DNA from: Platanthera guangdongensis | Taxonomy: Eukaryota > Streptophyta > Magnoliopsida > Asparagales > Orchidaceae | Assembly: GCA_039583875.1 (NCBI GenBank) | Contig: CM077163.1 | Coordinates: 111,051,213-111,115,212, forward strand | Direction of reading: 5' to 3' | Length of the DNA: 64,000 bases | Shown here: piece after piece, positions 1-63,092 of the stretch | How the letters are laid out: every line of letters begins with the position of its first letter | Position numbering within the stretch: position 1 is the stretch's first letter | The notes under the pieces: generated by a model | The model's input: only the letters and a program-made list of their open reading frames with translations | Told to the model about the DNA's origin: nothing | Database searches by the model: none | Translations under genes and position numbers: made by a program

Positions 1-1318
1 TGCGGCAAGATGCCGTTTGTGTTGTGGTGGTGATTGTCCCGTTTGCTTGAAAAGAGTACATGTAGTCGAACCCGGACAAGGTTAGCTCCTCGTGGTGGTA
101 GATGGTTTCCTTGACAAGGTTAGCTCCAAATGAGAATGGAGATGGTTTCCTTGGTGGACAAGGTTAGCTCCGCACGAGTTGGAGATGTTTTCCTTGGTGC
201 GCGGGAACGCTGCGGTACAAAGAGGGATTGCGATGTGTTTAGTCTTGGTTGTGTTGTGCCAAGGCGTGGCTATGTCTCCGTGGTCGGCTGGCTATCCCGT
301 GACACGTGCGTCATGTGTGGAGAGTGTCCCGGCGAGACTAGTCCCCTTCTGTGAGACTGACGAGAATGCCAAGCTTGGGGCAAGCCCGGGCAAAGAGGCC
401 ATGAGCGGGTGGGGTCCAGCAAGGCTTCTTAGAATCGGTCAGTCTGTGGTTGTTGGAATCCTGACATGAGACGTCAGAGCTTGCAGGCAAGCCCGGGGCT
501 AAGCCCACGAGCGGGTGGGGCCTTGGCAAGATTTCCATGTGGCGGCCTGTGCGCCGTGTGAGGGAGTTGTGTCTCCCTCAATGTTTGCGGCTTTATGCCA
601 ATTGGGGAAATGTGAGTACCCAAATGTTGTGATGTTGTGCTAGATGCATACGGTTTAGGGTACCTTGGGTGAAGCCCGGGTGTTGCATTCATGTTGCATA
701 ATAGGCCCTTTCTTTATATGCTCAACCAGTAGAGAACATGTTTGTTGATTGAGACATCCAAGCCTGTTTTAATGTTTTTCTATTTATAGAAATTTATATT
801 GCATATGAAGTGCTGACTTGCAGGTTGGAGGGTTCCCCGGGGTCCGTTAGGGGCGGCCGGGAGGAGATGTGTTGTTACACAGTTTGAGGTCAGCCTTTGC
901 TGACCCACGTTACTAATAATTTTTACAGGGCAAGGATCGCACGCAGGAGCTAGCACGCCGGCCAAAAAGGCCTAAGCCCATGAAGTGTTTTCTCTTTTGT
1001 AGCACTACTTTGATGATGTATGTTTGAGACTATTTTTGTCCGGCTTGCATGCCGAGGTAGACTAGGAGTGCTGAGCATATTCATGTTTGATTGTACTGTA
1101 TACCGCTTTTGGACATTTGATGTAAGGCCTTAAGGCCATTTGTTTACTCTTTTGGATTAGTGGATAACTTCTAGTTGTGCTTGGTTTTCCGCTGTGTTGT
1201 GCAAGTGTTTTGAGTTTGGGTAGCTATATCAACTTTTAATACTAAAGCTGTGGTGTTCGTATGTTGTGGGGCCCCGGCCGGACCCATATTATACGTCTAT
1301 TACAGGGGAGGTGTTACA
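1..1318 (+). repeat. E1 5' LTR, 3'-terminal part
   Basis: Matches 7432-8749 and ends in GGTGTTACA, the inverted match of the LTR start TGTAACACACC at 6135. It carries a good splice acceptor at 927-928 (TACTAATAAT then TTTTACAG). Under the proposed leader splicing this whole segment is intron. The tandem repeats and first exon of this LTR lie left of the window. Confidence 0.95.
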
Positions 1319-1457
1319 ATTTGGTATCAGAGGGAGGTTGGATTCAAGGTCAGTGCGTAGAGAAGTTATCCACATAAGAGTAACGCGGGACCATGAGTGT
1401 CCTTATGTTTTAGTCTTGAGATTGGAGACTAATCCCTTATTTCTTGTCTTCCTGAAG
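1319..1457 (+). other. E1 leader, 3' end of proposed leader intron
   Basis: Internal leader between the LTR and the gag body. It ends in a pyrimidine-rich run and AG at 1456-1457 (TTGTCTTCCTGAAG), directly before codon AGT at 1458. The gag frame has no ATG between here and 1569. Joining the LTR donor at 7153 (the 5' LTR equivalent) to this acceptor keeps the gag frame (phase 0). The intron would be about 1736 nt. Confidence 0.55.
1322..1336 (+). promoter_or_regulatory. E1 primer-binding site (tRNA-iMet)
   Basis: TGGTATCAGAG begins four bases after the LTR end. This is the usual plant initiator tRNA-Met complement; it matches 11 bases, then diverges (GGAGG instead of C..). Under the splicing model below it lies inside an intron, so only unspliced RNA could be reverse transcribed. 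Confidence 0.85.
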
Positions 1458-2619
1458 AGTGCAAGCAACGAGGCGGGCACTTCAAGAGCAAGGGATGATC
1501 TCTCGGCGAGCAGTGCTACTGCTCCAGGTCTTTTGGGCACGGGTGTAGACCCGGTCGACTTCTGCCGCATGCTTGCAGAAGCGATGGTGGCAGCTCAGGC
1601 TGCAGCAGCGGCTCAGGTGGCAGCCCCTGCCACACCAGATACGGCAACGGCCGTGCCAGGAGCAGAAGCCAGGCGAGTGGAGCCTTTGGCGGAGAGAGTA
1701 GTTGTTGGACATGGAGATCGACACATGAAGTACTTCCTGAGTTTCCATCCCCCGTCCTTCAAGGGTACTGGAACGCCAACGGATGCGGAGGACTGGTGGG
1801 TTCGTATTCAAGAACTGTTAAGGGCGGCAGAGACGCCAGAGGAAAAGAAAGCTGAGTATGCGGCTTTCATGTTGGAAGGGGATGCCAAGTTATGGTGGGT
1901 GGCCCATAGCGGCCGCCAGTTTCCGGGACGCACCCCGTCAGTGGAAGAGTTTGGGGACGCTTTTCTTAAGAGGTATATCCCAGTTTCAACTCGGTTGGCC
2001 CTGCAGAGGCAGTTTCTGCATCTAATGCAGCGAGACAAGACAGTGGATGAGTACGTGCAAGAGTTCACCCGATTGGGTCGTTATGCGGGAACGACAATGG
2101 CTGATGATGTAGAGAGGGATAACCTCTTCTACCAAGGTTTGAGGGAGAATCTGAGGCAGCCCCTCATCTCCATGAAGAGGGCGGGATTTAATGAGTTAGT
2201 TGAAGCCGCCAGGAGTTTGGAGAATGATTTGGAGCGAACCCAACGCCGTAAGGGTTTTACTCCCAAGCAAGGGGAAGGGAAGCCTTCCCAATCTCATGGA
2301 AAGTCTGATGGGAGTAGGTGGAGGAAGAAGCCTTCCACTTCCAGATCTGGTGAGAGGAGCAACTGGACGCCTGGGGGTTCCCACTCTAGGGGACCGCCGA
2401 CGTGCTACAACTGCGGGAAGGTTGGGCACATAGCCCGTGCTTGTCATCAAGGGGGAGCGGGGCAAGAGTCAAAGCAGGAGCAGTCTGTGCGCTCGGGCCC
2501 CAGTGCTGCAGAGAAAGGAAAGATGGCGGAGTCGAGCGCTTCTCGGTTCCAACCGGTGCAACCAAGGGCCTACAACCTTGGACAGCAAGAAGCGATCCGC
2601 CAGACGGATGTGGTGACAG
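1458..2619 (+). CDS. gag: E1 gag (main exon)
   Basis: Structural Gag of a chromovirus, forming the cytoplasmic particle. Visible parts are a variable acidic/Ala-rich start, the conserved gag core ([11 protein letters not shown], then a [12 protein letters not shown] block), a basic Ser/Arg-rich linker and one CCHC zinc knuckle ([14 protein letters not shown], about 2403-2444), then the conserved tail [20 protein letters not shown] start at 1458 because a splice acceptor precedes it in phase. The frame is open further upstream into the LTR, but without an ATG. A conventional start would be the first in-frame ATG at 1569, losing 37 residues. Without splicing at 2620 the frame stops at 2636, five codons after the donor, which would give Gag alone. 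Confidence 0.85.
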
Positions 2620-2690
2620 GTATGAAGAGAATTTAAGTTTAAATTTTGTGCTTCATCCTTTTAGACTTTTGTGTAATGTCTATGTTGTAG
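2620..2690 (+). other. E1 gag-protease intron, 71 nt
   Basis: Donor CAG|GTATGA at 2619/2620, acceptor TATGTTGTAG|G at 2690/2691. It is T-rich, about 28% GC against roughly half in the flanks, as expected for plant introns. Phase 1: it splits the Gly codon of the VVTG motif. Removal joins the gag frame to the pol frame, which is offset by two. The same position is interrupted in E2, E3, E4 and E5. No RNA evidence is available here. Confidence 0.75.
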
Positions 2691-5600
2691 GCTTCGTGTT
2701 AGTTTCCGGATACCCCGCTAGGGTATTGTTTGATACAGGAGCATCGCACTCCTTTCTTGCGGAGAGCTTCATCCGGAGAATAGGAGTTGAGTCTTTCTCG
2801 TCGGGTGCAGAGCTGAAAGTGCGCATGCCCAATGGGTCATCTATGACCACCGGGGTTAAAGGGCGCATTTGTTGGGAGCTAGACGGAGTTGTCTTCGCTC
2901 TGGAAGCGGCAGTGTTACCTTTAGTAGAGTTCGATGTCATTTTGGGTATGGACTGGCTTGCAGAGCAGCGCGCCAGTATTGACTGCCTTTCTAAGGTGGT
3001 GACCTTAAGGAGTAAAGGGCAAGCAGAAGTCAAGTTTGAGGGCCTTGGTGGAGTGGCCTGTTCCCTGATATCGGCCATGCAGTTGGTGCGGGCGGTTAAC
3101 CAGGGTGGTGTAGCGCTTGTAGCGTTATTGGAGGTTCGTCTCTCCCAACTGTCGATTGAGGAAGTGCCTGTGGTGGCAGAGTTCAAGGATGTGTTTCCGG
3201 ATGAACTTCCTGGAGCGCCTCCTCGGCGGGAGATCGACTTCTCGATCGAGTTAGTGCCGGAGGCTAGACCGGTGTCACGTCCTCCATTTAGGATGGCACC
3301 AAAGGAGTTAGCGGAACTTAAGGTTCAGTTACAGGAACTGTTGGAGCAAGGGTATATTAGACCCAGTTCTTCACCGTGGAGCGCACCGGTGTTGTTTGTG
3401 AAGAAGAAAGACGGTAGCATGCGCCTGTGCATAGACTACCGAGAGCTTAATAAGTTGACCGTCAAGAATAAGTATCTGATCCCTCGGATAGACGACCTGT
3501 TTGACCAATTGGTGGGGTCAGTGGTATATTCGAAGTTGGACTTGAAGTCGGGATACTATCAGCTACGAATTCAGGACGAGGACATACCCAAGACTGCTTT
3601 TGGGACAAGGTATGGACACTTTGAATTTACGGTGATGCCGTTCGGGCTGACGAACGCACCATCGGTGTTCATGGATCTGATGAATCGGGTATTCCGGGAA
3701 TACTTGGATTCTTTTGTGGTTGTTTTCATTGATGACATTTTGGTGTATTCCAAATCGCAAGTGGAGCATGAGACCCACTTGAGAATGGTTTTGCAAGTGT
3801 TGAGGGAGAATGAGTTGTATGCAAAATTCTCCAAATGCGAGTTCTGGTTGGAGAAGGTGGCATTTTTGGGCCACGTGATTAGTGGTGATGGGGTGGCAGT
3901 GGATCCAGCGAAAGTGGAGGCCATCAGAGATTGGCCGGTGTTGAGGACCGTGGCGGAAGTCCGAAGTTTTCTTGGACTAGCCGGGTATTATAGGAGATTC
4001 GTGGAGAATTTCTCGAAGATAGCTCTACCCCTCACCTCTCTCACTCGCAAAGACCATAAATTTGTGTGGACCCAAGAGTGCGGTCAAGCATTCGAGGCAC
4101 TAAAGGAGAGGCTTATGATGGCTCCGATCTTGAGTTTACCGCAAGGGACAGATGGATTTCAAATTTTCAGTGACGCATCGGGATGCGGTTTGGGTTGCGT
4201 TTTGGTGCAACATGGGAAGGTGATAGCCTTTGGGTCTAGACAGCTGAAACCTCATGAGAGGAATTACCCCGTCCATGACTTGGAGTTGGCGGCGGTAATC
4301 TTCGCGCTGAAAATTTGGCGACATTATGTTTATGGCGCAAGAGTGGAGATCTTCACGGACCATAAAAGCCTGAAGTATCTCTTAGATCAAAAGGACTTGA
4401 ATATGCGGCAACGCAGATGGGTTGAGTTTCTTGGAGACTACGAAGTGGCGATTCAGTACACGCCGGGTAAAGCCAATGTGGTGGCGGATGCGTTGAGTAG
4501 AAAGTACTCGGGGCTAGGAAATTGGATCGAAGCTCATGATGAGCGGTTGGTACGGGAATGGGAGTCCCTTGGATTGGAATGTGTTGCGAGAGGCGAGTCT
4601 AGCGTGGCTCGGTTGAACTGGATTGAAGTGCAAAACGACTTGTCCGATCGTATTCGGGAAGCGACTCGATTAGATGTGGAGTTTCAACCTTTTGTGTTGG
4701 AGGCTCAAATGGGCGAGAGCAGCACCTGGGAGATGATCGGGGGAATCTTGAGAAAGGATGGAAGGGTTTGTGTACCGCAGTTTGGCAATCTCTGTGAGGA
4801 GTTGATGTTCGAGGCTCACTTCTCAAAGTACTCCATTCACCCAGGCAGTACAAAGATGTACTTGGATATGAAGAAATCCTTTTGGTGGCCGGGGTTGAAG
4901 CGAGATGTGGCTTTGTATGTGAGTCGTTGCCAAACATGTGCCTTGGTGAAGGCCGAATGTCAGAAACCGGGTGGGTTCCTGAAGCCCCTTCCAATTCCTG
5001 AATGGAAATTTGAGGACATCTCCATGGACTTTGTGCATGGTTTGCCTAGATCGCAGCATGGGAATGATGCTATTTGGGTGATCGTGGATCGCCTAACCAA
5101 GGTGGCTCACTTCATCCCGAACCGGAAAGAGGACAGCGTGGAGAAGCTGGTGGAGTTGTATGTTCGCAACATTGTGCGACTGCACGGAATTCCTAAGAGC
5201 ATAGTCAGTGATCGCGATGGACGGTTTACGTCCAAGGACTGGAGACTGGTTCAGAAGAACTTGGGCACGAAGCTAAAGTTTAGTACGGCGTTCCATCCTC
5301 AAACTGATGGGCAAACGGAGAGAACGAACCGTACTATGGAGGATATGTTGAGGATGTGCGTTCTTGATTTTGGCAAGAGGTGGGAGGATCACCTCTTCAT
5401 GGTAGAATTTGCGTACAACAACAGTTTTCAAGCTAGTATAAAGATGGCGCCATACGAAGCTTTGTATGGGAGGCGGTGTCGAACGCCAATGTCTTGGGCA
5501 GAGGCGGGAGACACCAAACTTCTGGGAAAGGATGCGGTAGTTGACGCTTGTGAGATGGTACGGACCATCCAAGAGCGTATGAAGGTGGCACAAGACAGGC

Positions 5601-6076
5601 AAGCGAAATATTTTAATGCTCGTCACCGGAAGTTAGAATTTGCAGTTGGTGATTGGGTTTATCTGAAGGTCAAGCCGTTCAAAGGCGTCTCGCGGATTCG
5701 CCGACTCAAGAAGTTGAGTTCAAGGTTTTTGGGGCCTTTTGAAATTGTTGAGCGGATAGGAGAAGCAGCCTATCGGTTGGCATTGTCCGCAGATTTGAGT
5801 GGATTACATGACGTCTTCCATGTCTCCGTGTTGAGGAAAGCCTTGGTGGAGGCTAGCGTGGTGATTGAGCCGGCATCGGTGCCGATTGAGGAAGACTTGA
5901 GGACGCGAGTCCTTCCAATCGCTATAGAAGATTCAGAGATTCGGCAGTTGCGGAATAAAGAAGTTAAACTTGTGAAAGTTCGTTGGGACAACTGCGGTCG
6001 TGAGGAGTTCTCGTGGGAGCGAGAACAGGCCATGCTAGAAGACTATCCAGAACTATTTTTGTCAGGTACAATTTAA
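2691..6076 (+). CDS. pol: E1 pol: PR-RT-RNaseH-INT with chromodomain-like tail
   Basis: Polyprotein, open throughout. Aspartic protease with [10 protein letters not shown] (about 2727-2757) and a VILGMDWL block. Reverse transcriptase with LCIDYRELN and the catalytic FIDDILVYS (3725-3751). RNase H with SDASG (about 4170) and DALSRK. Integrase with the HHCC zinc domain (about 4819-4960), catalytic Asp in MDFVHGLP, Asp in SDRDGRF (about 5207) and Glu in the RTMEDML block (about 5340). The C-terminus ([21 protein letters not shown]) is the chromodomain-like tail of Tekay/Del elements. No ATG opens the frame, so expression depends on fusion to gag. I favour splicing over frameshifting because the frame offset differs between copies (+2 here, +1 in E3). 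Confidence 0.93.
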
Positions 6077-6133: not shown

Positions 6134-6203
6134 TTGTAACACACCAGTTTTTGCAAGAGGTTCAATCTGCTGTTCTGGAAAATTTTTGGGTTCTGGCAGG
6201 AGG

Positions 6204-6614
6204 CACACGGCCTGCGACACGGGCGTGTCGCAGGGCGTGTCGAGGCCGTGTCGACACTCGGCCCAAGTGTCGACACTTTGTGCTCGACAGAGTGTCGAGA
6301 GTGAGGCACACGGCCTGCGACACGGGCGTGTCGCAGGGCGTGTCGAGGCCGTGTCGACACTCGGCCCAAGTGTCGACACTTTGTGCTCGACAGAGTGTCG
6401 AGAGTGAGGCACACGGCCTGCGACACGGGCGTGTCGCAGGGCGTGTCGAGGCCGTGTCGACACTCGGCCCAAGTGTCGACACTTTGAGCTCGACAGAGTG
6501 TCGAGAGTGGGGCACACGGCCTGCGACACGGGCGTGTCGCAGGGCGTGTCGAGGCCGTGTCGACACTCGGCCCAAGTGTCGACACTTTTGCTCGAGAGTG
6601 TGTCGAGACTGGGG
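6204..6614 (+). repeat. 103-bp tandem repeat, four copies, in E1 U3
   Basis: CACACGGCCTG recurs at 6204, 6307, 6410 and 6513 (spacing 103), with a partial, more diverged copy from 6615. Each unit holds the hairpin GCGACACGGGCGTGTCGC and two perfect GTGTCGACAC palindromes. Long open frames on both strands here are by-products of the repeat. Confidence 0.93.
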
Positions 6615-7128
6615 CACACGGCTTGGGACACGGGCGTGTCCCAGACCGTGTCATCTCTCGGGTTGGAGTTGGGGCCGTGTCGTTGGAGCTACACGGCAGG
6701 CCACACGGCCGTGTCACGTGGGACACGGGCGTGTCGGATTGAACACGGGCGTGTCGAATGCCCGTGTCTGATTCCAGGCGCGTCGATTTGAGACGGCGAA
6801 TGAGGCACACGGCCCTGGACACGGGCGTGTGCCAGGCCGTGTTCGGCCCAGGTCTTTTATTTTCCAGGCGAATCGCAGCCAGTCTTTTTCTGGTTTTGGG
6901 ATCTAACGGTTCAGGCCATCTCCTGGACAGTTAAGCCCGACCCTAGGGTTACAGATCCTCATTCGTTTCCAAGTTCTCTCTTCCTAAGATCTTGAGAAAA
7001 CCTAGAGCAAGGAGGAAGAAGAAGAACTCTTGGGCTGTAGGAAGGGTGTCGGAGCTCCGAATCGCGAGCCGAGTCCGGATCCGTGAAGCTTGGAGCATTG
7101 CGAAGTGTTCCATCCGGCTATTTTTGCC

Positions 7129-7152
7129 ATGGCAAGGAAGAGGAGTCGGAAG
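7129..7152 (+). CDS. gag: Proposed gag exon 1 inside E1 LTR
   Basis: ATG in good context (TTGCCATGG) opens eight codons, MARKRSRK, ending at a strong donor AAG|GTAACGAC. E2 has a counterpart at the same LTR offset (position 959 in E2, 995 here) with the same GTAACGAC donor. The basic start fits chromoviral Gag N-termini, and the gag body lacks its own start. This is the 3' LTR copy; the functional one would lie in the 5' LTR left of the window. Alternative: a short untranslated-leader ORF. Confidence 0.6.
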
Positions 7153-8749
7153 GTAACGACATCTCTCCTCTCGGTCTTTAGGATGCACGTTTTAGCATCA
7201 TCTAGTTTTCTTTTCTCTAATTTTTGGGCACCAAACTCTCAAATGAGAGGGGTTTTGGCTTGCCAAGTTTCAAGAGGAACTTCCGGGTCGATTGAGTCCG
7301 TCCCCGGCATATTTTGCATTAGAGATCCGCTTCGCTAGTGGATTAGGCATGGTGGGTGAAGCCGTAGTCGCGACCGTTAGTCCGACACGGTGATGTTGCA
7401 TACGAACTTAGGGATTCGTAGAGGTTTCCGATGCGGCAAGATGCCGTTTGTGTTGTGGTGGTGATTGTCCCGTTTGCTTGAAAAGAGTACATGTAGTCGA
7501 ACCCGGACAAGGTTAGCTCCTCGTGGTGGTAGATGGTTTCCTTGACAAGGTTAGCTCCAAATGAGAATGGAGATGGTTTCCTTGGTGGACAAGGTTAGCT
7601 CCGCACGAGTTGGAGATGTTTTCCTTGGTGCGCGGGAACGCTGCGGTACAAAAAGGGATTGCGATGTGTTTAGTCTTGGTTGTGTTGTGCCAAGGCGTGG
7701 CTATATCTCCGTGGTCGGCTGGCTATCCCGTGACACGTGCGTCATGTGTGGAGAGTGTCCCGGCGAGACTAGTCCCCTTCTGTGAGACTGACGAGAATGC
7801 CAAGCTTGGGGCAAGCCCGGGCAAAGAGGCCATGAGCGGGTGGGGTCCAGCAAGGCTTCTTAGAATCGGTCAGTCTGTGGTTGTTGGAATCCTGACATGA
7901 GACGTCAGAGCTTGCAGGCAAGCCCGGGGCTAAGCCCACGAGCGGGTGGGGCCTTGGCAAGATTTCCATGTGGCGGCCTGTGCGCCGTGTGAGGGAGTTG
8001 TGTCTCCCTCAATGTTTGCGGCTTTATGCCAATTGGGGAAATGTGAGTACCCAAATGTTGTGATGTTGTGCTAGATGCATACGGTTTAGGGTACCTTGGG
8101 TGAAGCCCGGGTGTTGCATTCATGTTGCATAATAGGCCCTTTCTTTATATGCTCAACCAGTAGAGAACATGTTTGTTGATTGAGACATCCAAGCCTGTTT
8201 TAATGTTTTTCTATTTATAGAAATTTATATTGCATATGAAGTGCTGACTTGCAGGTTGGAGGGTTCCCCGGGGTCCGTTAGGGGCGGCCGGGAGGAGATG
8301 TGTTGTTACACAGTTTGAGGTCAGCCTTTGCTGACCCACGTTACTAATAATTTTTACAGGGCAAGGATCGCACGCAGGAGCTAGCACGCCGGCCAAAAAG
8401 GCCTAAGCCCATGAAGTGTTTTCTCTTTTGTAGCACTACTTTGATGATGTATGTTTGAGACTATTTTTGTCCGGCTTGCATGCCGAGGTAGACTAGGAGT
8501 GCTGAGCACATTCATGTTTGATTGTACTGTATACCCCTTTTGGACATTTGATGTAAGGCCTTAAGGCCATTTGTTTACTCTTTTGGATTAGTGGATAACT
8601 TCTAGTTGTGCTTGGTTTTCCGCTGTGTTGTGCAAGTGTTTTGAGTTTGGGTAGCTATATCAACTTTTAATACTAAAGCTGTGGTGTTCGTATGTTGTGG
8701 GGCCCCGGCCGGACCCATATTATACGTCTATTACAGGGGAGGTGTTACA

Positions 8750-8959
8750 TGGTGGATCCATATACAGACACATATTATGCATCCCATACTACATAATATG
8801 CCCCGTATACTTCATGTTATGCTATGAGTGTAGTGTTCGTGCTTCAGCTAAGTTGTGCTGATGACATATCGGCGTGTGTGTGATATGATGCTAAACACCT
8901 AATACTAACAAGGAAAGGTTGCCCGACAAATTGTCAAGCAACCTCCCTCTAATACCAAC
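8750..8959 (-). other. E7 leader with primer site, cut by E1
   Basis: Reverse complement reads GTTGGTATTAGAGGGAGG right after an LTR end (GGGTTGTGACA), an iMet primer site with one mismatch (8946-8959). The rest matches the leader of E5 (around 57260-57470), including the ATAATATG motif and the GGATCCACCAT stretch at which E1 is inserted. The rest of E7 lies left of the window. Confidence 0.8.
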
Positions 8960-10237: not shown

Positions 10238-11084
10238 AACAAAACGGATATATAATCCGTCTAACTATGAGGGAATCTCATACTCACCACCATACAATGT
10301 AAACATCCAAAAAAAGCAGGTAGACTTCCATAGGGCACTAATGAAGGTGACAAACACTGCAGAGGTGGAATCGTCCACTAACTCCCGCATTCAAGAACCC
10401 AAAGAAAATAAAAACAAATATCTCGAGATTTGGCTCGACAGATTCTACTTGACATTACCGAACTCAAGACGCGGTTGATCAACCTCTAGGAGCAATTTAC
10501 ATTCCTAGATAAATTCTAACGCTCTAAAAACGAAAGCTAAAACATGCATAGCCATAATTAGGATACACCAGGAACACTTAACCAAAACCAGACAAAATCG
10601 GGCTTTCCAAGACAACATTGTACAACAACAAAGGAACGTTGAAACGATAATCATCACAATGACGTGGAAGAATAAGCGCAGAAAATTTAAAGAACATGAA
10701 AGTATAGTCGTTACCATCAAATCGGACAAAGAGAAACGAGGGGAAAACCACCACTTGCCTTGGTTTTACCAGAAAAGTCCTCTGAATCGCTCCACGTCGT
10801 AGATCGGGGCAAAAGACTGCGGGAGGAGTTGAAATCTAGACAAAAAGGGTCGAAAAGAGGATTAGGGCCGAAAAACCCTAACGAGAAAATCTCAAGAAAC
10901 GGGGAAGAAATTACCACGAGGGCGTAACTCTCGACGAGAGCTTTCCAGATCTACGATCGGTTTGAAATTCCGAGCACCGGAGCACCGTCAACGGCCACCG
11001 AAAGAATAAGGAGGGACAACTTCTATCTCGCTCATGCCGCTCTGGTTCGAGAGGAAAACGAATCGGAGAAGAAGATGAAGAAGA

Positions 11085-13534: not shown

Positions 13535-13558
13535 CCTTGACGACCGCTTCGGTTCCAT
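13535..13558 (-). CDS. gag: Proposed gag exon 1 in E2 3' LTR
   Basis: Eight codons MEPKRSSR ending at donor AGG|GTAACGAC. The 5' LTR copy at 33711-33734 reads MAPKRSSR with the same donor, and E1 has MARKRSRK. In phase it would join the E2 gag body, which starts VTRSG right after its acceptor at 19211-19212. Confidence 0.6.
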
Positions 13559-17999: not shown

Positions 18000-18088
18000 A
18001 TATGACAAACATGTCACACACAAACCGCAAACATAGATAGATTAAGCAAAGCATACAAATAGTAGCATATTCAAAACTAAACTCATAC
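18000..18088 (-). other. E2 gag-protease intron, 89 nt, acceptor lost
   Basis: Donor CAG|GTATGA as in E1, in the same Gly codon after DVVT. At the expected 3' end the last two bases are AT, not AG (GTCATAT|GA), although the downstream codons ([12 protein letters not shown]) align with E1 and E3. I infer a decayed acceptor. Confidence 0.6.
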
Positions 18089-19210: not shown

Positions 19211-19430
19211 CTAAAGGTGGACAAGACACACACATTAGCGGTCGTACCGAAGCAAACAACACAAAATAAGAACACGCAGGTTCCTTAAACACATCAAGTT
19301 TGCATTCCTATCATGGACATTCAGGAGTTCATTCGTAGACGTTGGTTTGCACAAACACGTGCTCGCCACCCCACAAAAGAAGTCGACCATGACTTCGAGA
19401 GGGAAAGACCAAGACAACTGATACCAAAAA
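19211..19430 (-). promoter_or_regulatory. E2 leader with primer site, inside proposed intron
   Basis: TGGTATCAGTTGTCTTGG at 19409-19426 is an iMet-type primer site with a diverged second half. The leader ends in GTCCACCTTTAG. A 50-codon ATG frame in between ends in TAA and is not conserved in E1. Confidence 0.75.
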
Positions 19431-20589
19431 TGTAACAACCCCATCCGTTCATATGGTATATTCTAGAAGGTCCGGCCGGGGCCCCACAGGATATATCACA
19501 AAACAGACGGTGAATGTACAGGATGATACCAGAGTAGCGCATCGCACCTATCACAAAGCATTCTAGCGGAAGCCGATCCTACAACTTGAACTCCTCATGA
19601 ATGTCCAAACATAAAACTCCACATTTTATACGATATAGATATGTCTTACAACAAGTACAAATAGTTGGCCTTATGGCCTTACATGGCTATCAAACAGTGG
19701 CCTAAATCAATTGGCGCGCAGGCCGGCCACATGAAGAGAAAGTACACAAAAGCAACACATATAGCCTTCGAGGGCTAGTAGTAGTAGCAGCAACAGTAGC
19801 ATGAACATCAGCCTCTACGCGTCCCGCTTGGCTCGCCAGCACCTGTACAGGGACAATCCACCCAACGGTGGCAAACAAAAGCAACGGTCAGCGTTCAGCT
19901 GACCAAATTATAACGACCCTACCCCTTTTCTCGGGGCAGCGGTACTCTTCCCTGCAGGCATATCATATCACAGTATGATAATATATCTCATCAAAATGTG
20001 CTTTCACGCACGCAATCCATCACAACCGTTCGCCACCCGGCCCAATGGTTCGTGCTTTTAGGGCACATTCTTGGTGTTCTGGCAAAGCTCTTGCCCACCA
20101 CCGTATCAGGGTCATCACCCATCGGTAACTCTCTTGAGCATTTACTCCATGGCGTGCAGCCAGAGTTAGTCTTCCTACACTGGGATGGCCCGTAGCCCCC
20201 ATTGTGTCATGGCGCGCAGGCCGAAGACTCTTGCTATGCGCTCCAATAGACCGCACCTTGGTCTCACGTTGGACGGACATAGCGCAGGTCGGATCCTCCA
20301 CCCCCCCCCCCCCCCCCGTTGCTTAAATCGCCTTGCCTTCTCCGAGTACAGCGTACTCATGGCTATATCAAAGACGCGGGTTGGTCTCACCAATCCTGTT
20401 CTTGGCATTCAAGCATGGGTATTTCTCTATACCAATTTTCTTAGCACAACAACGAGTCTTTCCTGGGCCTCCCAGTACTTCCTGTGACTCTCTTCACAGG
20501 TGGACACCGCATAATCACAAGTGTCAGGGGTCTTTCCTGGCTACCATGCCAGTACTTCCTGTTACTCACTTCACAGGTGGACACCCTAC
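19431..20589 (-). repeat. E2 5' LTR, segment 1
   Basis: Matches the 3' LTR from TGTAACAACCCC to the copia A insertion at CCTAC. It contains a 17-C run near 20301 that is absent from the 3' LTR (short C run there), a sign of slippage or assembly trouble. Confidence 0.93.
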
Positions 20590-21702
20590 TGTTGGAGTTA
20601 CCATTGTGATCTGGAAGTGATCAAACATGTAATCTCACTGCCAACGCGATATGGGCCTGCAGGGTCGCATATAAGAGATGTGGAGAAGTTGGATGATTGA
20701 CTGTGTTGGTAAAGGTTGCCAATCACCGACCTGAATGGGGTTGTGGGCAAAGTGTTGCCTTAAAGGATCGTCGGGTTTGGGCAAATGTTGCCTTGGAGGG
20801 CTGGTAAGGTTTGTCGTCCGAGGGTCGATAACAATCGTCGAGACTCGTCTCTCTTTGATTCCCGCCGATCGACGAGAATCGTCGAGAATCAATATGCTGA
20901 TTCTCGACGATCGACGAATTCGACAAGTATCATCGACCGCGGTTCGACGATCGACGAGATTCGACGTGTATCGTCAAGTGAGGCTCGACGATCGGCGAGA
21001 ATCGTCGAGTATTGTACTCTGATTCTTGGCGATCCATTGTGATCCTCGCTGATCGATTCTCGCAGATTCTCGCCGATTCTCACCGACTGATACTCACCGA
21101 TTCTGGTACCCTATTTTCGGGGTGGTCTGTGGATAGCGATTTTACTAAGTTTATTTTATACTTTGAGTATAAATAGAACACTTAGGGTTTTCGGGCTTTA
21201 CGTTTTTTTGTTTTCGGCAGACGATCGAAATCGATGGAAGCGTTCCGCCATTCCGCGATCGTTCTGCCGATACCGAATCCCGCCGCCGACGGAAGGGTTC
21301 CGCCGCCGCCGTGTTCGCTCCGTTGACCTCCTCATCTCCGGCGATCGTCTCTGGTGTTGCTCTTCCTGGCGCGGACCTAGCAGTCCGTGGAACAACAAGG
21401 TGCGGTCATCGTTCTTCCCGATCTTCCGTGCGACGGAAAGCTCGGTGTTCTCCCGCTCGTGTGGAATTCTGCAGAAACGTGGATATTATTCCACGTAGAA
21501 CTCGCCACTAGCAAGAAGAAAAAGTTTGGAGCATCTCCGTTGAGTTGTGACTCAACGCCACCGAGGTAATTTTTGCCTAGTTTTTGCTAACTTCTTGATT
21601 CAACGTTCATGGCCCGATCCACATCTCTTTGGGTTTTTCTTGATGTTTTTCTCTTCCGCTGCGTGCACAATTGTTGTGCCATCCCCTTTGAGAAACCCAA
21701 CA
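20590..21702 (+). repeat. Copia A 5' LTR (1113 bp)
   Basis: Begins TGTTGGAGTTACC and ends AACCCAACA. U3 (about 20770-21090) is packed with CGACGATCGACG and GATTCTCGCCGATCGACG units that pair into hairpins. TATA box at 21168. The 3' LTR has an extra unit of about 32 bp. Confidence 0.95.
21168..21175 (+). promoter_or_regulatory. Copia A TATA box
   Basis: TATAAATA follows the palindrome array and is followed by AGAACACTTAGGG, a likely transcript start area. The same motif lies at the matching place in copia B LTRs (34503-34510 on the reverse strand). Confidence 0.7.
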
Positions 21703-22682
21703 GTGGTATCAGAGGGAGGTTTCGGCCATGATCGTTGTATTGGAAGTTTGTTATTCCAATGCGTGTAAACCTAGGGATTTAGAAGTGTTCTAAATGTCTA
21801 GATTTAGTCTTGGTTCCCCGCCAAGAACCTCTGGAATTGCGTGGAATTTCTAATTGTTAGAAATTGTGATCTCCTTAGCAGTAACCATCCCTCGATTTTG
21901 TTTTGGATTTTGAATCCAACAAAGAGAGATGAGCTTGTCTACAGCTTTAAGTTGAGTTGTCTTTGCCTTTATCCAATGCATGTAAATCTGAGGATTTGGA
22001 AGTCTCCGGATGTTCAGATTTAGCCCTTCCTTCTATCAATTGTTGATGGTGTCAGGATGTGCACATAAGGGATGCATGTGGTTTTAGAAGAATTGTTTTT
22101 CTTTGGATGTGCACATTGATCAAATTTTGGTCATGGTTAATTGTTAACCTATAATTAAAATCCCTTCATCTAATATTAAGTGTTCGGATGCCTTCTGATG
22201 GATGACACTCTTCCTGCCTCGATCGATGAAGTGTGGGCTTGCCAAAGCAAGGTGCATTAATCTATCTTGGTAAGGGTGCGAGCGGATAATTGTGATATCC
22301 CACTGTCGACATCAGGTCCATCTTAACTAGGTGACCTCAAAGGTTGAGTGCCTAGAGGCATAGGGTTGGCATGCACCATATGATGGATGCGAATAAGGAG
22401 TTATTCACCAACCATACAAGAATTGCATGAGGATGCAATTGGCAAGCGTTGCCTACCTAAATAACCGCATTGTGAGAGGAACGCCAAAGAGAACTCATAG
22501 TGTTGGTGAAATACGGATCTTGTCCACTAAGAGAGTAGCTCGCATGAACTCTCCGAATTGTTAGTGAGGGCTATCATTTCGAACAAAATAGTGGGAGTAT
22601 TTTAATTGAAATCCAAATTAAAATAAATTGTATTTGAAATTTTGGTACTGATTTTATTCTGCATAAACTCTTGTAGAATTCC
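21703..22682 (+). other. Copia A primer site and long leader
   Basis: TGGTATCAGAGGGAGG at 21704 is the iMet primer site. About 980 bp of leader follow without a convincing gene before the gag ATG. Copia B keeps the same leader length (40034-41016), so the length is a family property. Confidence 0.85.
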
Positions 22683-23504
22683 ATGGCAAGTGTTTCACAC
22701 TCCACCTTGTCTCTGAGAGCCATCCTTGAGAAGGATAAGCTCAGTGGGACAAATTACATGGACTGGTATAGGAACCTGAGAATTGTTCTCAGGCAAGAGC
22801 GAAAGCTCTATGTCTTGGAAGAAGAAGCCCCCGAGGTGCCGACCGGGAACTCTTCCCGTGCTGAGAAGGATGCTTATAAGAAGTATACTGACGACGCTTT
22901 AGATGTCGAATGTCTTATGCTTGCCACTATGAACTCTGAGCTTCAGAAGCAACATGAGAACATGGGGTGCAAGGAGATTGACGAGCATCTCAAGAAAATG
23001 TTTCAAGGGCAGGCTCATCAAGAGAGGTTCGACATCACAAAATCGTTGTTTCAGTACAAGATGGGAGTTCGAGACTCAGTAGGGACTCACGTACTCAAGA
23101 TTATTGGGTATATAGAGAACCTTGAAAGGCTGGGTTTTCCTCTTGGTCAAGAGTTGGCCACGGATCTGATCCTGCAATCGTTGCCGGACAGTTATGAGCA
23201 GTTCGTCTTGAACTACAACATGAATGAAATAGACAAGACACTGCCCGAACTCCTAGGCATGTTGAGAACTGCCGAAATCAATATGAAGAAGGCCAAGCCT
23301 GCCAGCCCCATACTGATGGTGCATAAGGGCAAGGGCAAGGCCAAGGGTTCTAAGAAGACGAAGGTGGGACCTAAGTCATACCTTGAGCCCAAGTCTTCAG
23401 CACTGATGAAAAAGGAAAGCACGGTGAAGGAAGGGAAATGCCACCACTGTGGCAAGGCTGGTCATTGGAGGAGGAACTGTCCTTCGTACATTGAGGGTCT
23501 GTAG
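22683..23504 (+). CDS. gag: Copia A gag (273 aa)
   Basis: Starts ATG in context CCATGG. Copia Gag with the LSGTNYMDWYRNL block near residue 20, the gag-like core (VLEEEAPEVP, LILQSLPDSYEQFVLNYN), a Lys-rich linker and one CCHC knuckle (CHHCGKAGHWRRNC) near the end. The frame ends in TAG, and pol continues in the same frame after it. Copia B has CAG at this place, so the TAG is a CAG-to-TAG change that uncouples Pol rather than a designed stop. A readthrough origin is possible but less likely. Confidence 0.9.
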   Translation: MASVSHSTLSLRAILEKDKLSGTNYMDWYRNLRIVLRQERKLYVLEEEAPEVPTGNSSRAEKDAYKKYTDDALDVECLMLATMNSELQKQHENMGCKEIDEHLKKMFQGQAHQERFDITKSLFQYKMGVRDSVGTHVLKIIGYIENLERLGFPLGQELATDLILQSLPDSYEQFVLNYNMNEIDKTLPELLGMLRTAEINMKKAKPASPILMVHKGKGKAKGSKKTKVGPKSYLEPKSSALMKKESTVKEGKCHHCGKAGHWRRNCPSYIEGL

Positions 23505-26500: not shown

Positions 26501-26641
26501 GTCGAACGAGGAGATGTAAACATTTGTAGAGTGCCGACTGAGGAAAATATTGCGGATCCGCTGACAAAGCCTCTCGCGCAGAGAAAGCATGATGGTCATA
26601 CTAGATCGATGGGTATACGATACCTAAATGATCAAATCTAG
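23505..26641 (+). pseudogene. pol: Copia A pol pseudogene (PR-INT-RT-RNaseH)
   Basis: Protease WVLDTGFGSHICTN (Cys-Gly turned to Phe-Gly), integrase zinc domain (HCRLGHINEKRI, CESCLLGKM), catalytic core with VHSDVCGP, then RSYRGGEYLS in which the second catalytic Asp is Tyr (copia B has Asp), and GVSERRN. RT with FLNGNLLEEVYM and YVDDILLIGND (about 25651). RNase H with ADSTTEAEYIAAAN. Breaks: TAA at 24870, a one-base deletion near 25222, TAG near 26073 (Trp lost) and TAA near 26268. Not functional. Confidence 0.93.
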
Positions 26642-28702: not shown

Positions 28703-31700
28703 TGTAACATCCCAATTTCAACTAGACCCCCCTAAGGGTGATTTTGGGCAAGGCTAGTTCAAGACCAACCCTAGGATGACCTTGGGGACCAAGTGGGCCT
28801 AGGTAGGAGGATGAAAGCTACCATGGTCTGCAAATAGTAAAATTCAAAACAATATTTTAGAAGGACATTAGGGCTTCACCATGACTCCATGACCCCATCA
28901 CAACATTATTAACCTAGCAAAGGGGGGGGGGGGGGGGTCAACCCAAGCTCAACCCCTTTTTCCTTTTAAGTTAACCACAATATAATGAAATATTATGGGT
29001 GGAAAGGGCTGCCAATAGGCTGGGGAGTCAGCATGGTCAGCTTTGGTGACAAGGAAAGAGAGAGAAAGCTTCATTCCATACTAATGGAGGAGAGAGAAAA
29101 GGGGAAAGAGAGTTGAAGGAGGAGATTGGCCAAGGAAAGGCCAATGGTCCCCATTGATGGCAGCATTCATCTCCTCCAGTGAAGGGGAGGAGTTTCCAGC
29201 CGTTTTCCTGGCTGTCAAGGGGCTGTTACAGCCTCCACCATCATGGCCGAAACAAGCCTTTAATGGCCATGATGGCCATGGCAGTTTCTTCCATTCTTCT
29301 CCCCCTCTGATGTTTTAAACATCATCAGTGAGCTTGGAGAAGAATTTCCCAATCCTTAACTGAAGAAATCCGGCGAGTTTACTGGGAGATTGCAGAATTC
29401 CGATCGGCGGCGCCACCACCATGTCAACCCGCAGATCCGCTCGTCTCCAGGCCGCCAACAAGGTCCTCCTCCTCCTCTTTTCTCTTGGGTAGATCTTAGG
29501 TTTCATTAGGGCCAAGGTTCGGGCACAATTGAGCCCGATCCAATTCGCAAAATTCATGGCTTTCGGCCGAAAATTTTATTGGTTGGATCGCCGGAATCCG
29601 CCCCTCCGGCGGCTGTGCCGCCGTCTGGCGATAGCCACCACCTCAACGGAGATGATGGTGGCGGTGGCCGGCCGGGGAAGGGACTGGGTGGCCGGCGGCA
29701 GACGCTTGAAGTCGGCACAGGAAGAAGCAATCCTGGCCGTTGGCTCATCGGGGACGATAACCCAGCGCCGTCGATCTGCGCCAAGATTCGCGCGGCATCA
29801 AATCAGATACTTTAGGATTTAAATAAATATCATTTCATTTCTGTCACATTAGATGTATTTAATGTATTTAATTTTTAAAAATACTTAGGGACCCTGAATG
29901 GAAATCTGCCCAACATGAAAATTGTAGCTTCGGGTGTCTAGTTTGTAGCAAAAATTGCTTGGACCCTTTTGGGCCACCGGTTAGACCAGGGTACCCCTTT
30001 TTGGTAGGACCTATACCTAGGCCTAAACAGAAATTAGTTTTGGTGCCCACACTTCATTCCTTGTCCAAACAAGTTGAAATTTGGGCAGTGAGAATGTTTT
30101 AGTCATATCTAGAACCTGTCCAAAATTTAGAATTTTTGGAGAATATTTTTCTATATTTTTTAGAAAAATTTAATAAATCATGATTAATTTAATTATGTGA
30201 CCTAATTAATTTAAAACTCCCCCAAATTTTGGTGGGTGGTCTTAGATGTCATGATAGGTATAGGGTTAAAACTTTAGCTCATTTGGAGATGTTTAGGATA
30301 GGTAATTTACCCACCCTATATATGACCTTATAATGGTATTTTGGTCAAAAGCCACTATTTGATGGTTGAGTGGCCAAATTCCCTCATCAGAGGCTGAAAT
30401 TTTGGCCACTGATATAATTTGACTTTTTACACTCACTTATGAAGTTTGGAGTGGTTTGGACTAGGGTAGCCCTAGAATTTTAGGGTAGGCCCTTTAGGGT
30501 AAATTACTAGGGTTTGAAGAATTTGGGGTCAAAAGACCTTGGATGGACTTGAAACTTGGGAATGATGTCCATAGGGTTACTATGGTCCTGTGGATAAAAT
30601 TTTAGGGCATTTGGAAGAATTTAAACCCCTTAAATCTATAACCCTAGTTTAGGGTACTAGCTTTGAAATCATAAGATCTAATACCAAAACTTTCTGAAAA
30701 GGGCTGAGTTTTTGAATGGGTAGTTGTTTAGGGTATATATATATCTGGAAATTTTATAATAAATTTTGGATGAATATTTTTGGTACTTTATTCACAAAGT
30801 CATGTTTTACAATTTTCACTTAGGAATTTTTGGAGAAAAGTATACTTGATTAAATCTGATGAAACTTAGCAAAGGGGCTTGTAACCATGGTACCCATCTC
30901 TGTAAAGTTTTATGAAATTTTTGAAGAATGATATTTAGTAGTTGCTTCTTTAATTAAATAATTCTATGGAACTTTGGTAAATTTAATAATGACATTTAAA
31001 TGGTCTAAAAAATTTTAATTTCTTCATCATGATGTTTTTAGTTCCTTATGAAGCCCTAGTAATTTTTACATAATTATTGGAGACATATTTGTGGCACTTC
31101 CTTCATTATATTTGATCTTAGGAATTATTTTTAATAAATCCTTTAGAGGTCAAGAACTATCTGGAAAATTATGCAAATTGGCAACCAATAATATTTCTCT
31201 GTTATTTAGTGAATACAAATTTTAGGAGGCCATTACCTGAGAAAATCTTATGGTTCATGTTCAAATTGACTATGGCCTAGTTTTTGAGTAAAATTCAATA
31301 AATAGTAGATTAATTGGGAAAAATATGATTTTCTGAATTTAGACTATATTTGTCATAATAGACCTCTGGTAAAATTTGTAGAGTTATTGGAGGAGAATTT
31401 AGAGTATCACCTATTGAGTACATCATATCAGCTTAGGGAGGTCTGCAATTAGTAAAAACAGCAGAAATCAAATTAAAGTGCACAATGAGTTTAGGAAGTT
31501 GGAATAATGGGGCATTAGTCTGGTAGGTGAATTAGGTTTGTCATCAGAAGTGTAGATGAGTAGTGGAGGTTGGTTAGAGTTGTGTGGGGTTCGGGATCGA
31601 CAAAGGATCACTCATCCTCGTTGAAAAGAAGGAGTCATATACACTTGGGTTAGAATTCAATTATAACCCTAAGGGATTGAGAGATTTGTGTAGTAACCAA

Positions 31701-33304: not shown

Positions 33305-33984
33305 CCTACGACATCAAGCATCACAAAGGGCCTTTCATTGTCACACCAGTACTTCTTGTACCTCATTCACATGTTGGACCCAAAAACATACCACTGCTAT
33401 TTTCCTGGGCTACCACCCCAGTACTTCCTGCTACTCCTTTTCGCAGGTATAACCCGTTGACTCCTTAAACTACACGTTTCGCACGGAGTCTTCTCCGGTT
33501 CGTATGCAACATCACCAATCTAGAACAACCTCTCCAGATGGGCTTCACACAGCATGCCTATTCCGTACTCCATTTCCGGATCTATATGGAAACAAAAGGG
33601 GATTTCATGAATCACCTAAACGACTCCAAAAATCAGCCACCTCTTGGTGGGGGAATCACAAAGATATGCCAAAAGAAAGCCTTCACATGGCTAGGAAGAA
33701 AGGTCGTTACCCTTGATGACCGCTTCGGTGCCATAAACTCAAAGCTTCCTTGAAAGACTCGCAAGAGCGTTTCCTCCGCAACGCCGGCTTCAGATTTCTT
33801 GTCGGTAAACCGCAGCACCACCAGCAGCGGCCCCCTTTCCTCCTCCTCCTTCTTCTTCCTCTCCTTTCTCTCTTAACTTGAAGAAAGCTCAAGGCCAAGT
33901 AAAATGAGAATAACTTCTCAGATTTCGGCCTTTAGGAAAAGAGGAAAGAAGCTCAGCCTTTGGATCCAGACTGAAGGAATGGAC
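33305..33984 (-). repeat. E2 5' LTR, segment 2
   Basis: Resumes after the CCTAC duplication and matches the 3' LTR (13131-13816) up to the copia B insertion at GGAATGGAC. It includes the proposed gag exon 33711-33734. Confidence 0.92.
33711..33734 (-). CDS. gag: Proposed gag exon 1 in E2 5' LTR
   Basis: MAPKRSSR then AGG|GTAACGAC. This is the copy that would have been transcribed. Joined in phase 0 to the gag body at 19210 (VTRSG...), with an ancestral intron of about 1780 nt that contained the rest of the LTR and the primer site. Copia A now sits inside that intron. Confidence 0.62.
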
Positions 33985-39000: not shown

Positions 39001-39239
39001 AAACCCCTACGGCTACAGCAGCAACTCTTGCTCCATTGCCGACGCGGAGGTCCAACTCCCCTTTACTCAGCAATCTTCTCCTTCCCAGTTCCTGCACATT
39101 TGTACAAATGTGAGAACCACATCCGGTATCCAATACCCAAGATGAAGGAGCAAAAAGGTTTATCTCTATAACATAAACATTTGAAGCGGAAGTCATACCT
39201 CCCCTCAATTTCTGCAGACCCTCAATGTACGAAGGACAG
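36074..39239 (-). pseudogene. pol: Copia B pol pseudogene, one stop
   Basis: Nearly whole copia Pol: protease WVLDTGCGSHICTN, integrase with CLLGKM, VHSDLCGPM, RSDRGGEYLS (second Asp present) and GVSERRN, RT with YVDDILLIGND, RNase H with ADSTTEAEYIAAANAAKEAVW, ending at RYLNDQL. I see one break, TAA at 37268-37270 where copia A encodes Tyr (LLEEVYMTQ). It is better preserved than copia A. Confidence 0.92.
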
Positions 39240-44976: not shown

Positions 44977-45036
44977 ATGCCGCCAAGAAGAGTTACACGA
45001 TCTATGGCCAAGAATAGTGGAAATGCCGGAAATGAG
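44977..45036 (+). CDS. gag: Proposed gag exon 1 in E6 LTR
   Basis: ATG opens twenty codons, MPPRRVTRSMAKNSGNAGNE, ending at donor GAG|GTGTGC. RRVTRS resembles the E2 joint across its intron (KRSSR then VTRSG), as if the junction lies further downstream here. LTR position 931. The gag body is not present to confirm the join. Confidence 0.5.
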
Positions 45037-57259: not shown

Positions 57260-57946
57260 AGTTGGTATCAGAGCCAGGTTGCTTGACAAATGGTTGGGCA
57301 ACCTTTCCCTTGTTTGCATTAGTGGTTAGCGTCATACCATACACACACCGATATGTCATCAGCACTGCTTGGCCGAAGCACGAACACTGCACTCATGAGC
57401 ATAAAGAAGTATACATGGCATATTATGTAGTATGAGATGCATAATATGTGTTTGTATATGAATCCACCATAAGAGGCAACATGTGATGGTTATGTAGTAT
57501 GGGATGCATAACCTCACCACATGAATGCGGCTAGCACGTTTTCTTTGTTCGTTGCATGGGAATGTTATGTAGTATGAGATGCATAACATTTTCATGTGTA
57601 CGCCACCCATGGCATGCACTAAGGCCTTTTTAGAATGCATAGCACATCATGCATATCATAACATTTCATAAGCACAACGTGCCAAGCTAAAGATTTGCAA
57701 GATGACATATGTACACACATGGTTTTGAGTAAAAAAGAATACAAATACATGCATTCATGGTTTAGGCACCTGAGTTAGTATGATGGTGGTGAACCATCTT
57801 AGGTTAAGCATAACATCATCATGGTAAAAACAACTCCCAAAGCAAGTTTTGCAGTTGAAGTTCATATTTAAGTGTGTTTGTCCGTACCGGGTAGTTTTGT
57901 TCTAGCTGATGGGCTAGGTTTTGTCTAAAGCTTGTGCGATTTTAGG
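57260..57946 (+). promoter_or_regulatory. E5 primer site and leader
   Basis: TGGTATCAGAGCC at 57262-57274 is a perfect initiator tRNA-Met match. The leader holds three spaced copies of TTATGTAGTATGAGATGCAT (57422, 57491, 57562 approximately) and ends in GCGATTTTAG just before the gag ATG. Confidence 0.9.
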
Positions 57947-59170
57947 ATGGTGAGACGTCCTGCGACGAGATCAACCCCCCAATCCGAGGGTGAGACGTCA
58001 GGAGCGTAGAGCGACGCGTTGGTAGAAAGCTTGCGGCAGAGTAATGAGGCGTTATCGAGGCAGGTAGTGCTATGTAGGCTCAGATTCAGTCCCTTGTAGC
58101 AGTGGTGGCGGGACAGAACCTGAGAGCTCAGGACCCCACTGAGGGGGTAGCTGTTCCTGCCCCTCCTGCTCCTCCCATGCCTTTGGTTGTGGTGCCCCCG
58201 GAGATGACGTTCATATCCCAGTTTCAGCGGCTGAGACCCCCAACCTATGATGGGCAGGCAAATTTCATGATTTTGGATGACTGGATGATTACCATTGAGG
58301 AGATGTTCTCTTACTCAGGGATTACGGATGATCAGAAAGTGATGCTCGCTGCCTACTAGCTCAAGAGCTTAGCAAAGAATTGGTGGCTGAGGGAGAAAGA
58401 GAGCCTAGTGGCAGGTTGCACTTGGGAGTCATTTAAGGTGATGTTGTTTAGTAAGTTTCTGCCTTCAGTCGAGCGGGACCGGCTAATGAATGACTTTCTT
58501 CATTTAAAGAAGAGGAAACTCACGGTTAGTGAGTATGAGATTGAGTTTAGTAAGTTGAGTCGGTTTGCTCTAGGTCTGGTGAGTGTTTAGGCAGACCGAG
58601 TTAAGCGATTTCTGGGTGGACTAAGAAGTGACATTCAACAGTTAGCGAATGCCTATGGAGCATTCAGTTATGCCAGCGTGGTTGAAGCTGCCTTGATAGT
58701 TGAGGCCATTGAGAATGCCAAGAATAGAGGCCAACAGTTGAGGAAGGATAAGCGGAAGTCCGATGGAGGGAAGAGCCCTCAGGAACCTGGTGCTGTCTCG
58801 AGAAAGAAGATCAAAGAGATTTGTAGCTTTTGTGTCCGGCCAGGCCACCCCTTTGAGAAGCGTTTCAAAAGGTTGGGAGCGTAGAAGAAGGTACAGGTGC
58901 ACGCGATTCAGGGTGTTTCCAGGGGAGACTTGGTGTGTGCCTTGTGTGGAAGGAAGGGGCATGAGGCTGCCCGTTGTTGGTTAAAAGATAAGGTCTGTTT
59001 TCAGTGCGGCCAGAAGGGTCATCTCAAGATAAGGTGCCCTCAGACCCAGCCTATTCTGCAGCCAGTTCCCCTCCAGGCTTTGCCACTGCCTCAGTAATTG
59101 GATAAAGGAAAGGGGAAGCTGAATGTGCTTTCGGCAGACGAAGCGAAGACCTCGACCCAGGTTATCTCAG
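57947..59170 (+). pseudogene. gag: E5 gag pseudogene, three zinc knuckles
   Basis: Here the gag start is internal: MVRRPATRSTPQSEG at 57947. The core has FISQFQRLRPPTYDG, FLHLKKRKLTVSEYEIEFSKL, then three knuckles: CSFCVRPGHPFEKRF (last Cys lost), CALCGRKGHEAARC and CFQCGQKGHLKIRC. Stops: TAG near 58018, 58358, 58588 and 58882, TAA near 59095. Three or four of these look like CAG-to-TAG. It ends in VISG at the intron donor. Confidence 0.9.
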
Positions 59171-63016: not shown

Positions 63017-63092
63017 CTAAACAAGCAGTGGTAAGGTAACATGCACATAACAAGTATGAAACAATTTCACTTGTTATAAATTTAAACCATAC
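63017..63092 (-). other. E3 gag-protease intron, 76 nt
   Basis: Donor CAG|GTATGG, acceptor CTGCTTGTTTAG|GA. AT-rich. Removal joins DVVTG to [16 protein letters not shown] with no stop, offset +1 (E1 is offset +2). Without removal the frame stops two codons after the donor. Confidence 0.75.

Follow-up and report, generated by a model that had tools for sequence, protein, structure and literature searches.

A probable LTR-encoded Gag start codon and probable leader and gag/protease introns in Ty3/gypsy retrotransposons of Platanthera guangdongensis

How a single RNA can act as message and also as genome has long been a question in the biology of retroelements. Here, we describe Ty3/gypsy retrotransposons of the orchid Platanthera guangdongensis in which the start codon of Gag appears to be encoded within the long terminal repeat (LTR), in a short predicted exon that is in phase with a distant gag body; this anatomy, made in the initial annotation of the locus, is confirmed. 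Very probably, these elements possess two introns, namely, a leader intron that begins at the LTR exon and a second intron at the gag/protease border, an explanation built on the anatomy of the elements, the recurrence of that anatomy and the existence of genomic copies that lack the second intron. If this explanation is correct, the answer to the old question is written in the DNA: the primer-binding site would be intronic, so that the RNA from which Gag is made could not be copied.

Methods

The analysed window is a stretch of 64,000 nucleotides (C17:111051213-111115212) that holds a nest of LTR retrotransposons, and whole-genome searches covered 4.25 Gb. Motifs were surveyed on both strands of the window and 221 kb of flanking sequence (pieces L022-L044), 284.8 kb in total. 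The motif was defined as an ATG, 7 codons with at least 3 K or R, and GTAAC, and its occurrence by chance was estimated from 20 Markov-shuffled sets. Genome-wide counts of junctions and exons were made at no more than 3 mismatches. Thirteen copies of the element E1 were picked by a perfect match to an exon-containing probe, so that the identity of the exon among them is by construction; 12 of the 13 have a readable acceptor, L012 being the one without.

Results

Organization of the E1 element

The element E1 is laid out as follows in the window:

1..1318, + strand: 3' part of the E1 5' LTR (99.7% match to 7432-8749; the remainder lies before base 1, in L022)
1322..1332, + strand: E1 primer-binding site, TGGTATCAGAG, directly after the LTR and within the predicted leader intron
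1456..1457, + strand: AG of the predicted E1 leader acceptor, preceded by a pyrimidine-rich run and common to 12 of 13 E1 copies
1458..2636, + strand: E1 gag body (predicted exon 2), with Retrotrans_gag and zf-CCHC matches
2691..6076, + strand: E1 protease-RT-RNase H-integrase frame (predicted exon 3), with a weak chromodomain match at its end
6136..8749, + strand: E1 3' LTR (start approximate)
7129..7152, + strand: E1 LTR exon 1, ATGGCAAGGAAGAGGAGTCGGAAG = MARKRSRK (ATG plus 7 codons)
7153..7160, + strand: predicted E1 leader donor, GTAACGAC, abutting exon 1

The LTR pair, the zinc-knuckle gag and the order protease-RT-RNase H-integrase identify E1 as a Ty3/gypsy element. The Pfam Chromo profile matches the end of the integrase weakly (E 0.0052; 17.1 bits, under the 25.1 cut-off), and E1 may belong to the Tekay/Del clade; TGGTATCAGAG is presumably the complement of the initiator tRNA-Met. 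A tRNA-Met primer site is given for most chromoviruses in a survey of plant LTR elements (PMC6317226). Among 7,997 candidates scored in a comparison of the E1 gag body with a protein database, none reached E 0.001 or better, and scans of viral contigs with pieces of pol found no relative.

Both the exon MARKRSRK with its adjoining donor in the LTR and the in-phase body after the AG at 1456-1457, as claimed in the initial annotation, were read directly, and the E1 5' LTR, in its part upstream of the window (L022:2611), has an identical exon and donor. Donor and acceptor are 1,736 nt apart, of which 279 nt precede base 1 and 1,457 nt fall within the window, in keeping with the proposed leader of about 1.75 kb, and the predicted intron contains U5 along with the primer-binding site; splicing would join CGGAAG to AGTGCAAGC. 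The frame of the body is open from 1224, without a methionine before CRML. The further claim that the E1 gag body lacks an ATG holds for 9 of the 12 copies with a readable acceptor, in which the open frame before exon 2 is free of methionine, and fails in the other 3, which have one and count against it.

E1 itself interrupts the leader of a minus-strand element of the E6 type, beside the primer site of that element (8749-8957; L022 near 1617), and TGGTG at both ends of E1 is a probable 5-bp target duplication. The E1 LTR also contains 103-bp tandem repeats (6200-6652, + strand), and the LTR-to-LTR distances among genomic copies vary by about that step.

LTR exons in other elements

Exons or exon-like frames were also read in the LTRs of E2 and of two further families within the window:

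33711..33734, - strand: exon 1 in the E2 5' LTR, MAPKRSSR, then GTAACGAC
13535..13558, - strand: copy of exon 1 in the E2 3' LTR, MEPKRSSR, then GTAACGAC
19211..19212, - strand: AG of the E2 leader acceptor, in CACCTTTAG, aligned with four relatives
44977..45036, + strand: exon of E3 (third LTR family), MPPRRVTRSMAKNSGNAGNE, 20 codons, then GTGTGC, with a TATA-like box 128 nt upstream
29421..29462, + strand: frame of E5 (fourth LTR family, probably a solo LTR), MSTRRSARLQAANK, 14 codons, then GTCC in place of a normal donor

In E2, exon 2 opens with GTG ACA CGA (VTRSG) immediately after CACCTTTAG and is preceded by a stop, exactly as had been described together with MAPKRSSR and its donor. The E2 5' LTR is interrupted by inserted elements. 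Two related copia elements lie in opposite orientations in one E2 LTR (20589-28703 and 33983-42146), the first of them adjoined by the 4.5-kb solo-LTR-like stretch of E5.

Only the gag-pol region of E4 falls inside the window (61.9-64 kb, minus strand), and its 5' end was read from the flank. There, the LTR exon ATGGCGCCAAGGAAACGTGCTAGG = MAPRKRAR is followed by a GTAACT donor and, past the primer site, CTATAG is followed by the body, GTGACCAGAAGC (VTRS; GTGACC start). Matching pairs of an exon and TATAG-GTGACC were found in three elements located by their protease in the 198 kb downstream, namely, L026el (MAPRKNAR), L032el and L037el (both MAPKRNAR); the predicted E4-type leader junction is GCWAGG joined to GTGACC. 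These four pairs outside the window support the reading of the leader as a putative intron. In all six elements with both parts assigned (E1, E2, E4, L026el, L032el and L037el), the exon is in phase with the body.

L041el, with the exon MPPKRITRSMAGNE followed by GTGATT, was grouped with the E3 type, which has longer exons. The E5 relative L025 has MVPRRSSRRKAAGK, again followed by GTCC, and no gag body was matched to the E5-type LTR; the E5 type lends the LTR exon weak support because GTCC, in L025 as well, is not a normal donor. Measured from approximate LTR starts, the exons lie 993, ~960, ~930 and ~720 nt into the LTR in the four families. Thus, the originally reported offsets of 719-995 bp stand, while the fourth family, E5, lacks a normal donor. 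A scan upstream of L030el, L034el and L035el found no exon within the pieces searched, the 5' LTRs of these elements lying partly in other pieces; the motif survey, which covered some of those other pieces, assigned no exon to the three elements either. Further LTRs with an 8-codon exon and GTAACG are located at L028:6310 (+) and L031:7551 (-), with the readings MAQKRTTR and MAPKRSSR.

Occurrence of the exon-donor motif beyond chance

One LTR by itself is weak evidence for such an exon, given that GTAA[CG] appears by chance in 8% and 11% of simulated LTRs and a looser donor in 37% and 56%; for this reason, a cross-family motif test was used instead. The octanucleotide GTAACGAC alone is mildly enriched, with 4 matches versus 1.25 expected (a number attained in 2 of 100 shuffles). 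The complete motif occurs at 12 places in the 284.8 kb, compared with a total of 2 across the 20 shuffled sets (0.1 per set), and all 12 places read M[AEV] plus a basic run. These 12 places correspond to 8-9 elements, with LTR pairs included (E1, E2, L032/L033 at 99.3% and perhaps L036/L037 at 90.6%). The conserved exon and donor that the initial annotation had proposed to look for in related elements are, in this form, present.

Between the primer site and the acceptor, a noncoding block is strongly conserved in the comparison of E2 with the E4 type (~19250-19320, minus strand; L023 ~380-470, minus strand). The possibility that this block forms a hairpin acting as a packaging signal was considered and rejected, the folding being no better than that of shuffles in 4 of 4 stretches.

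The gag/protease intron and its genomic traces

The second predicted intron is an addition to the earlier account of this locus. In the window, it is represented by the following segments:

2620..2690, + strand: predicted gag/protease intron of E1, 71 nt, 72% A+T versus 46% in the flanks
18000..18088, - strand: gag/protease intron of E2, 89 nt, acceptor dinucleotide lost in a degraded copy
63017..63092, - strand: gag/protease intron of E4, 76 nt

The E1 borders read ACAG then GTATGAAG at the donor and GTTGTAG then GCTTCG at the acceptor. Among 10 junctions that were read closely, 9 have the intron (E1, E2, E4, L026, L030, L032, L034, L037 and L041, with the donor only in L026el), and it is absent in L035. 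The segments at the 8 junctions with both ends are T-rich, with an A+T content of 68-72% versus 46-54% in the flanks, measure 71, 89, 76, 76, 75, 113, 97 and 91 nt (2, 2, 1, 1, 0, 2, 1 and 1 modulo 3), and are bounded by GT..AG in 7 of the 8 cases, E2 being the exception. The fused reading is alike across the junctions (..VVTG joined to FVLV.., or equivalent), and the unspliced frame ends after 1-15 codons. In E1, the stop of the Gag frame begins 14 nt past the second donor; the same distance was found in 10 of the 12 E1 copies, the frame being broken earlier in the other 2.

Genome-wide, the spliced gag/protease junction was detected at 107 places in the E1 pattern (57+50; 4 exact and 9 with one mismatch among the first 100 listed) and at 198 places in the E4 pattern (99+99), with 0 places for the backward control of either pattern; neither count represents independent events, and, at higher mismatch, some places may belong to both sets. 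Several sequence variants of the junction are represented, those of L032 and E4 among them. In L035 (minus strand, near 8461), the intron is missing from a site at which it is present in L030el (66% alike over 1.3 kb) and, judged by eye, in L041el. A 161-nt probe spanning the L035 site had 1,574 candidates, of which 40 were scored, L035 included; all 40 were intron-less, and this intron-2-less subfamily is abundant.

Copies without the second intron are best read as products of reverse transcription of spliced RNA, that is, the gag/protease intron was probably removed in RNA that was later reverse-transcribed. In the L035 type, the lack of the intron may be ancestral; this is less likely in the E1 type, where copies with the intron greatly outnumber those without it (3,074 places genome-wide for the unspliced E1 donor side versus the 107 places for the spliced junction, both for the E1 type only). 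Six intron-2-less loci were probed with small windows. Three of these, C6 and C12 of the E1 type and C9 of the E4 type, retain the LTR exon, a GT donor and the primer-site region, with slightly altered donor and primer-site letters in C6, one altered exon residue in C12, and a window that stops short of the acceptor in C9; C11 was informative for the primer site only, and the windows for C4 and C15 missed. RNA without intron 2 appears to have been copied, and copying of RNA without the leader was not seen in the genome-wide junction counts given below, as would be expected with an intronic primer site.

Evidence on the leader intron

In the 12 E1 copies, the leader ranges from 1,629 to 1,743 nt and passes through all three phases while the frames of the exon and exon 2 are preserved, as predicted if splicing joins the exon to the body. 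No other ATG precedes the LTR ATG for 329 nt in E1, 322 nt in E4 and 331 nt in L026el, and, in the E2 5' LTR, it is the first for the 250 nt preceding an insertion. Counting against its use, a nearer upstream ATG is found in the E2 3' LTR (16 nt), L037el (30 nt), L041el (102 nt), E5 (111 nt), E3 (141 nt), L025 (198 nt) and L032el (214 nt). Also counting against leader splicing, the donor GTAACG is devoid of the usual G at position +5.

The leader-spliced junction was found at 0 places genome-wide for the E1 type and 0 places for the E4 type, and the E1-type LTR exon with its donor is present at 8,552 places (4,179+4,373), at least the first 100 among the matches listed being exact. The zero count fits a leader-spliced RNA that would not be copied because the primer-binding site is absent from it, and is equally expected if the leader is never spliced. 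The joined N-terminus shows a weak resemblance to the contiguous Gag N-terminus of the E6 type (P 0.03 as the best of eight comparisons, the rest not significant), which was not relied upon.

Elements of another subgroup, typified by E6, have a different arrangement:

57944..57949, + strand: acceptor-like AG, one base, and gag ATG in the body of E6 (same arrangement in L034)

The sequence is TTTTAG then GATGGTGAGACG in E6 and CCATAG then GATGGCAAGACG in L034. Three related LTR stretches have a common GTAA site (10911-10914, ~49.15 kb and L025 near 2.8 kb, all on the minus strand), and E6-type elements perhaps possess a non-coding leader exon. The arrangement in E6 and L034 suggests that the leader intron may be older than the LTR exon.

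Alternative explanations

The LTR ATG could belong to a short upstream frame, with Gag starting internally or at a non-AUG codon of unspliced RNA, the candidate starts being the GTG straight after the acceptor in E2 and E4 and CRML/HMK in E1. Upstream frames are frequent in leaders, the E2 and E4 bodies happen to open with GTG after a stop, and the unspliced E1 LTR frame continues well beyond the donor. Nevertheless, we consider this explanation unlikely: in the 12 E1 copies, the LTR ATG is separated from the gag body by 40-44 further ATGs, ribosomes that scan an unspliced leader are not expected to arrive at the body, and the conserved 8-codon length, the phase and the GTAAC donor would have no role. 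Alternatively, the leader could be spliced as a common type of 5' UTR intron, the LTR exon being non-coding and Gag starting in the body. This would accord with the E6-type gag ATG one base past the AG in both examples and with the GTAA site of the three related LTR stretches, but the E1, E2 and E4-type bodies have no ATG at that point, and the LTR exon is in phase in six elements, making this explanation quite improbable for them. The probability appears slighter still that a conserved promoter or packaging sequence in the LTR reads by chance as a short basic peptide. In BLAST searches with the exon masked, the flanks of the E2 and E4-type LTRs are related, and so the likeness of their exons is not fully independent; however, in the alignment of E2 with the E4 type, the ATG and AGGGTAAC are retained without indels amid much diverged flanks, and the acceptor region is conserved as well. 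Moreover, the E1 LTR flanks match only the other LTR of E1, not E2 or the E4 type, with a similar exon nonetheless, and the phases of exon and acceptor are matched.

As for the second intron, Gag-Pol could be produced by ribosomal frameshifting, which occurs in LTR elements and for which the overlap of the gag and pol frames in E1 might speak. We regard this, too, as highly improbable. The lengths of the segment modulo 3 vary and, with them, the shift that would be required in each element, so that one frameshift rule cannot explain the joining of gag and pol; a scan of E1 for slippery heptamers printed none; and many genomic places, as counted above, lack exactly the GT..AG segment.

Discussion

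Under the two-intron explanation, which we prefer, the leader intron would extend from the short 5' LTR exon, encoding a basic Gag N-terminus, to just before the gag body, and its removal would take out U5 and the primer-binding site. In the leader-spliced mRNA, the AUG of the LTR exon would come first in several families, and Gag would be made from this RNA, with reverse transcription left unprimed; conversely, RNA that retains the leader would yield no normal Gag and would be usable as the genome. With the gag/protease intron of 71-113 nt retained, Gag would stop within a few codons of the donor, and with this intron removed, gag and pol would be fused in frame, giving Gag-Pol. Leader splicing, use of the LTR AUG and separate RNA pools are what we infer from the genomic sequence. 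It also seems likely that such elements operate two switches, the leader intron setting protein versus genome and the gag/protease intron setting Gag versus Gag-Pol; leader-spliced RNA would then seed no copies, and RNA lacking only intron 2 would repeatedly leave intron-2-less copies.

The 8,552 E1-type exon-donor places make splicing directly testable in ordinary RNA data. For annotation, the implication is that, if introns are ignored, Gag N-termini and the continuity of gag and pol would be missed, and sound elements may be called broken.

A search of the open-access literature, with subscription papers mostly outside its reach, did not turn up any account of a gag exon located in the LTR. 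The env mRNA of avian retroviruses is a partial parallel, in that splicing links a start codon in the leader, plus a few codons, to a distant body; there, however, it is Env that receives the start of Gag, from an exon outside the LTR. Neither "intron" nor "splic-" occurs in the text of a paper on CRM elements (PMC3059260). For Diaspora, a Ty3/gypsy element of soybean, donors in the LTR were predicted, and that paper states that no intron upstream of gag had been reported in any retrovirus or LTR retrotransposon; unlike the case described here, the Diaspora donors are a prediction only, and the start codon is in the body (PMC1142308).

A 2025 review describes plant elements as generally free of introns and singles out Ogre and EVADE as notable exceptions (PMC12786077). 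In the 2019 survey of plant LTR elements, Bianca and Ogre are each reported with two separated frames, an intron is cited for Ogre, and the word "intron" is used twice, neither time for Tekay (PMC6317226). In Ogre, which belongs to the Tat lineage of Ty3/gypsy, two polyprotein frames are brought together when an intron is removed from part of the transcripts, as proposed here, but that intron lies between gag-prot and RT in another lineage, whereas the E1-type intron sits between gag and protease; a leader intron with an LTR exon is not described for Ogre in the text examined (PMC6317226). In EVADE, a Ty1/copia element of Arabidopsis, alternative splicing likewise produces an mRNA distinct from the full-length RNA, in this case one for Gag only, from which the protease region is dropped, and a coding exon in the LTR goes unmentioned in the available part of the review (PMC12786077). 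BARE1, a Ty1/copia element of barley, has separate RNA pools for translation and replication and, close to the gag/protease border, a U-rich intron of 104 nt (CAG/GTAT), a primer-site-bearing leader intron not being described for it in the text examined (PMC3735527). Splicing of BARE leads to Gag only (PMC3735527), whereas in the orchid elements the frame ends after Gag if the intron is kept and runs on if it is removed, and splicing would lead to Gag-Pol.
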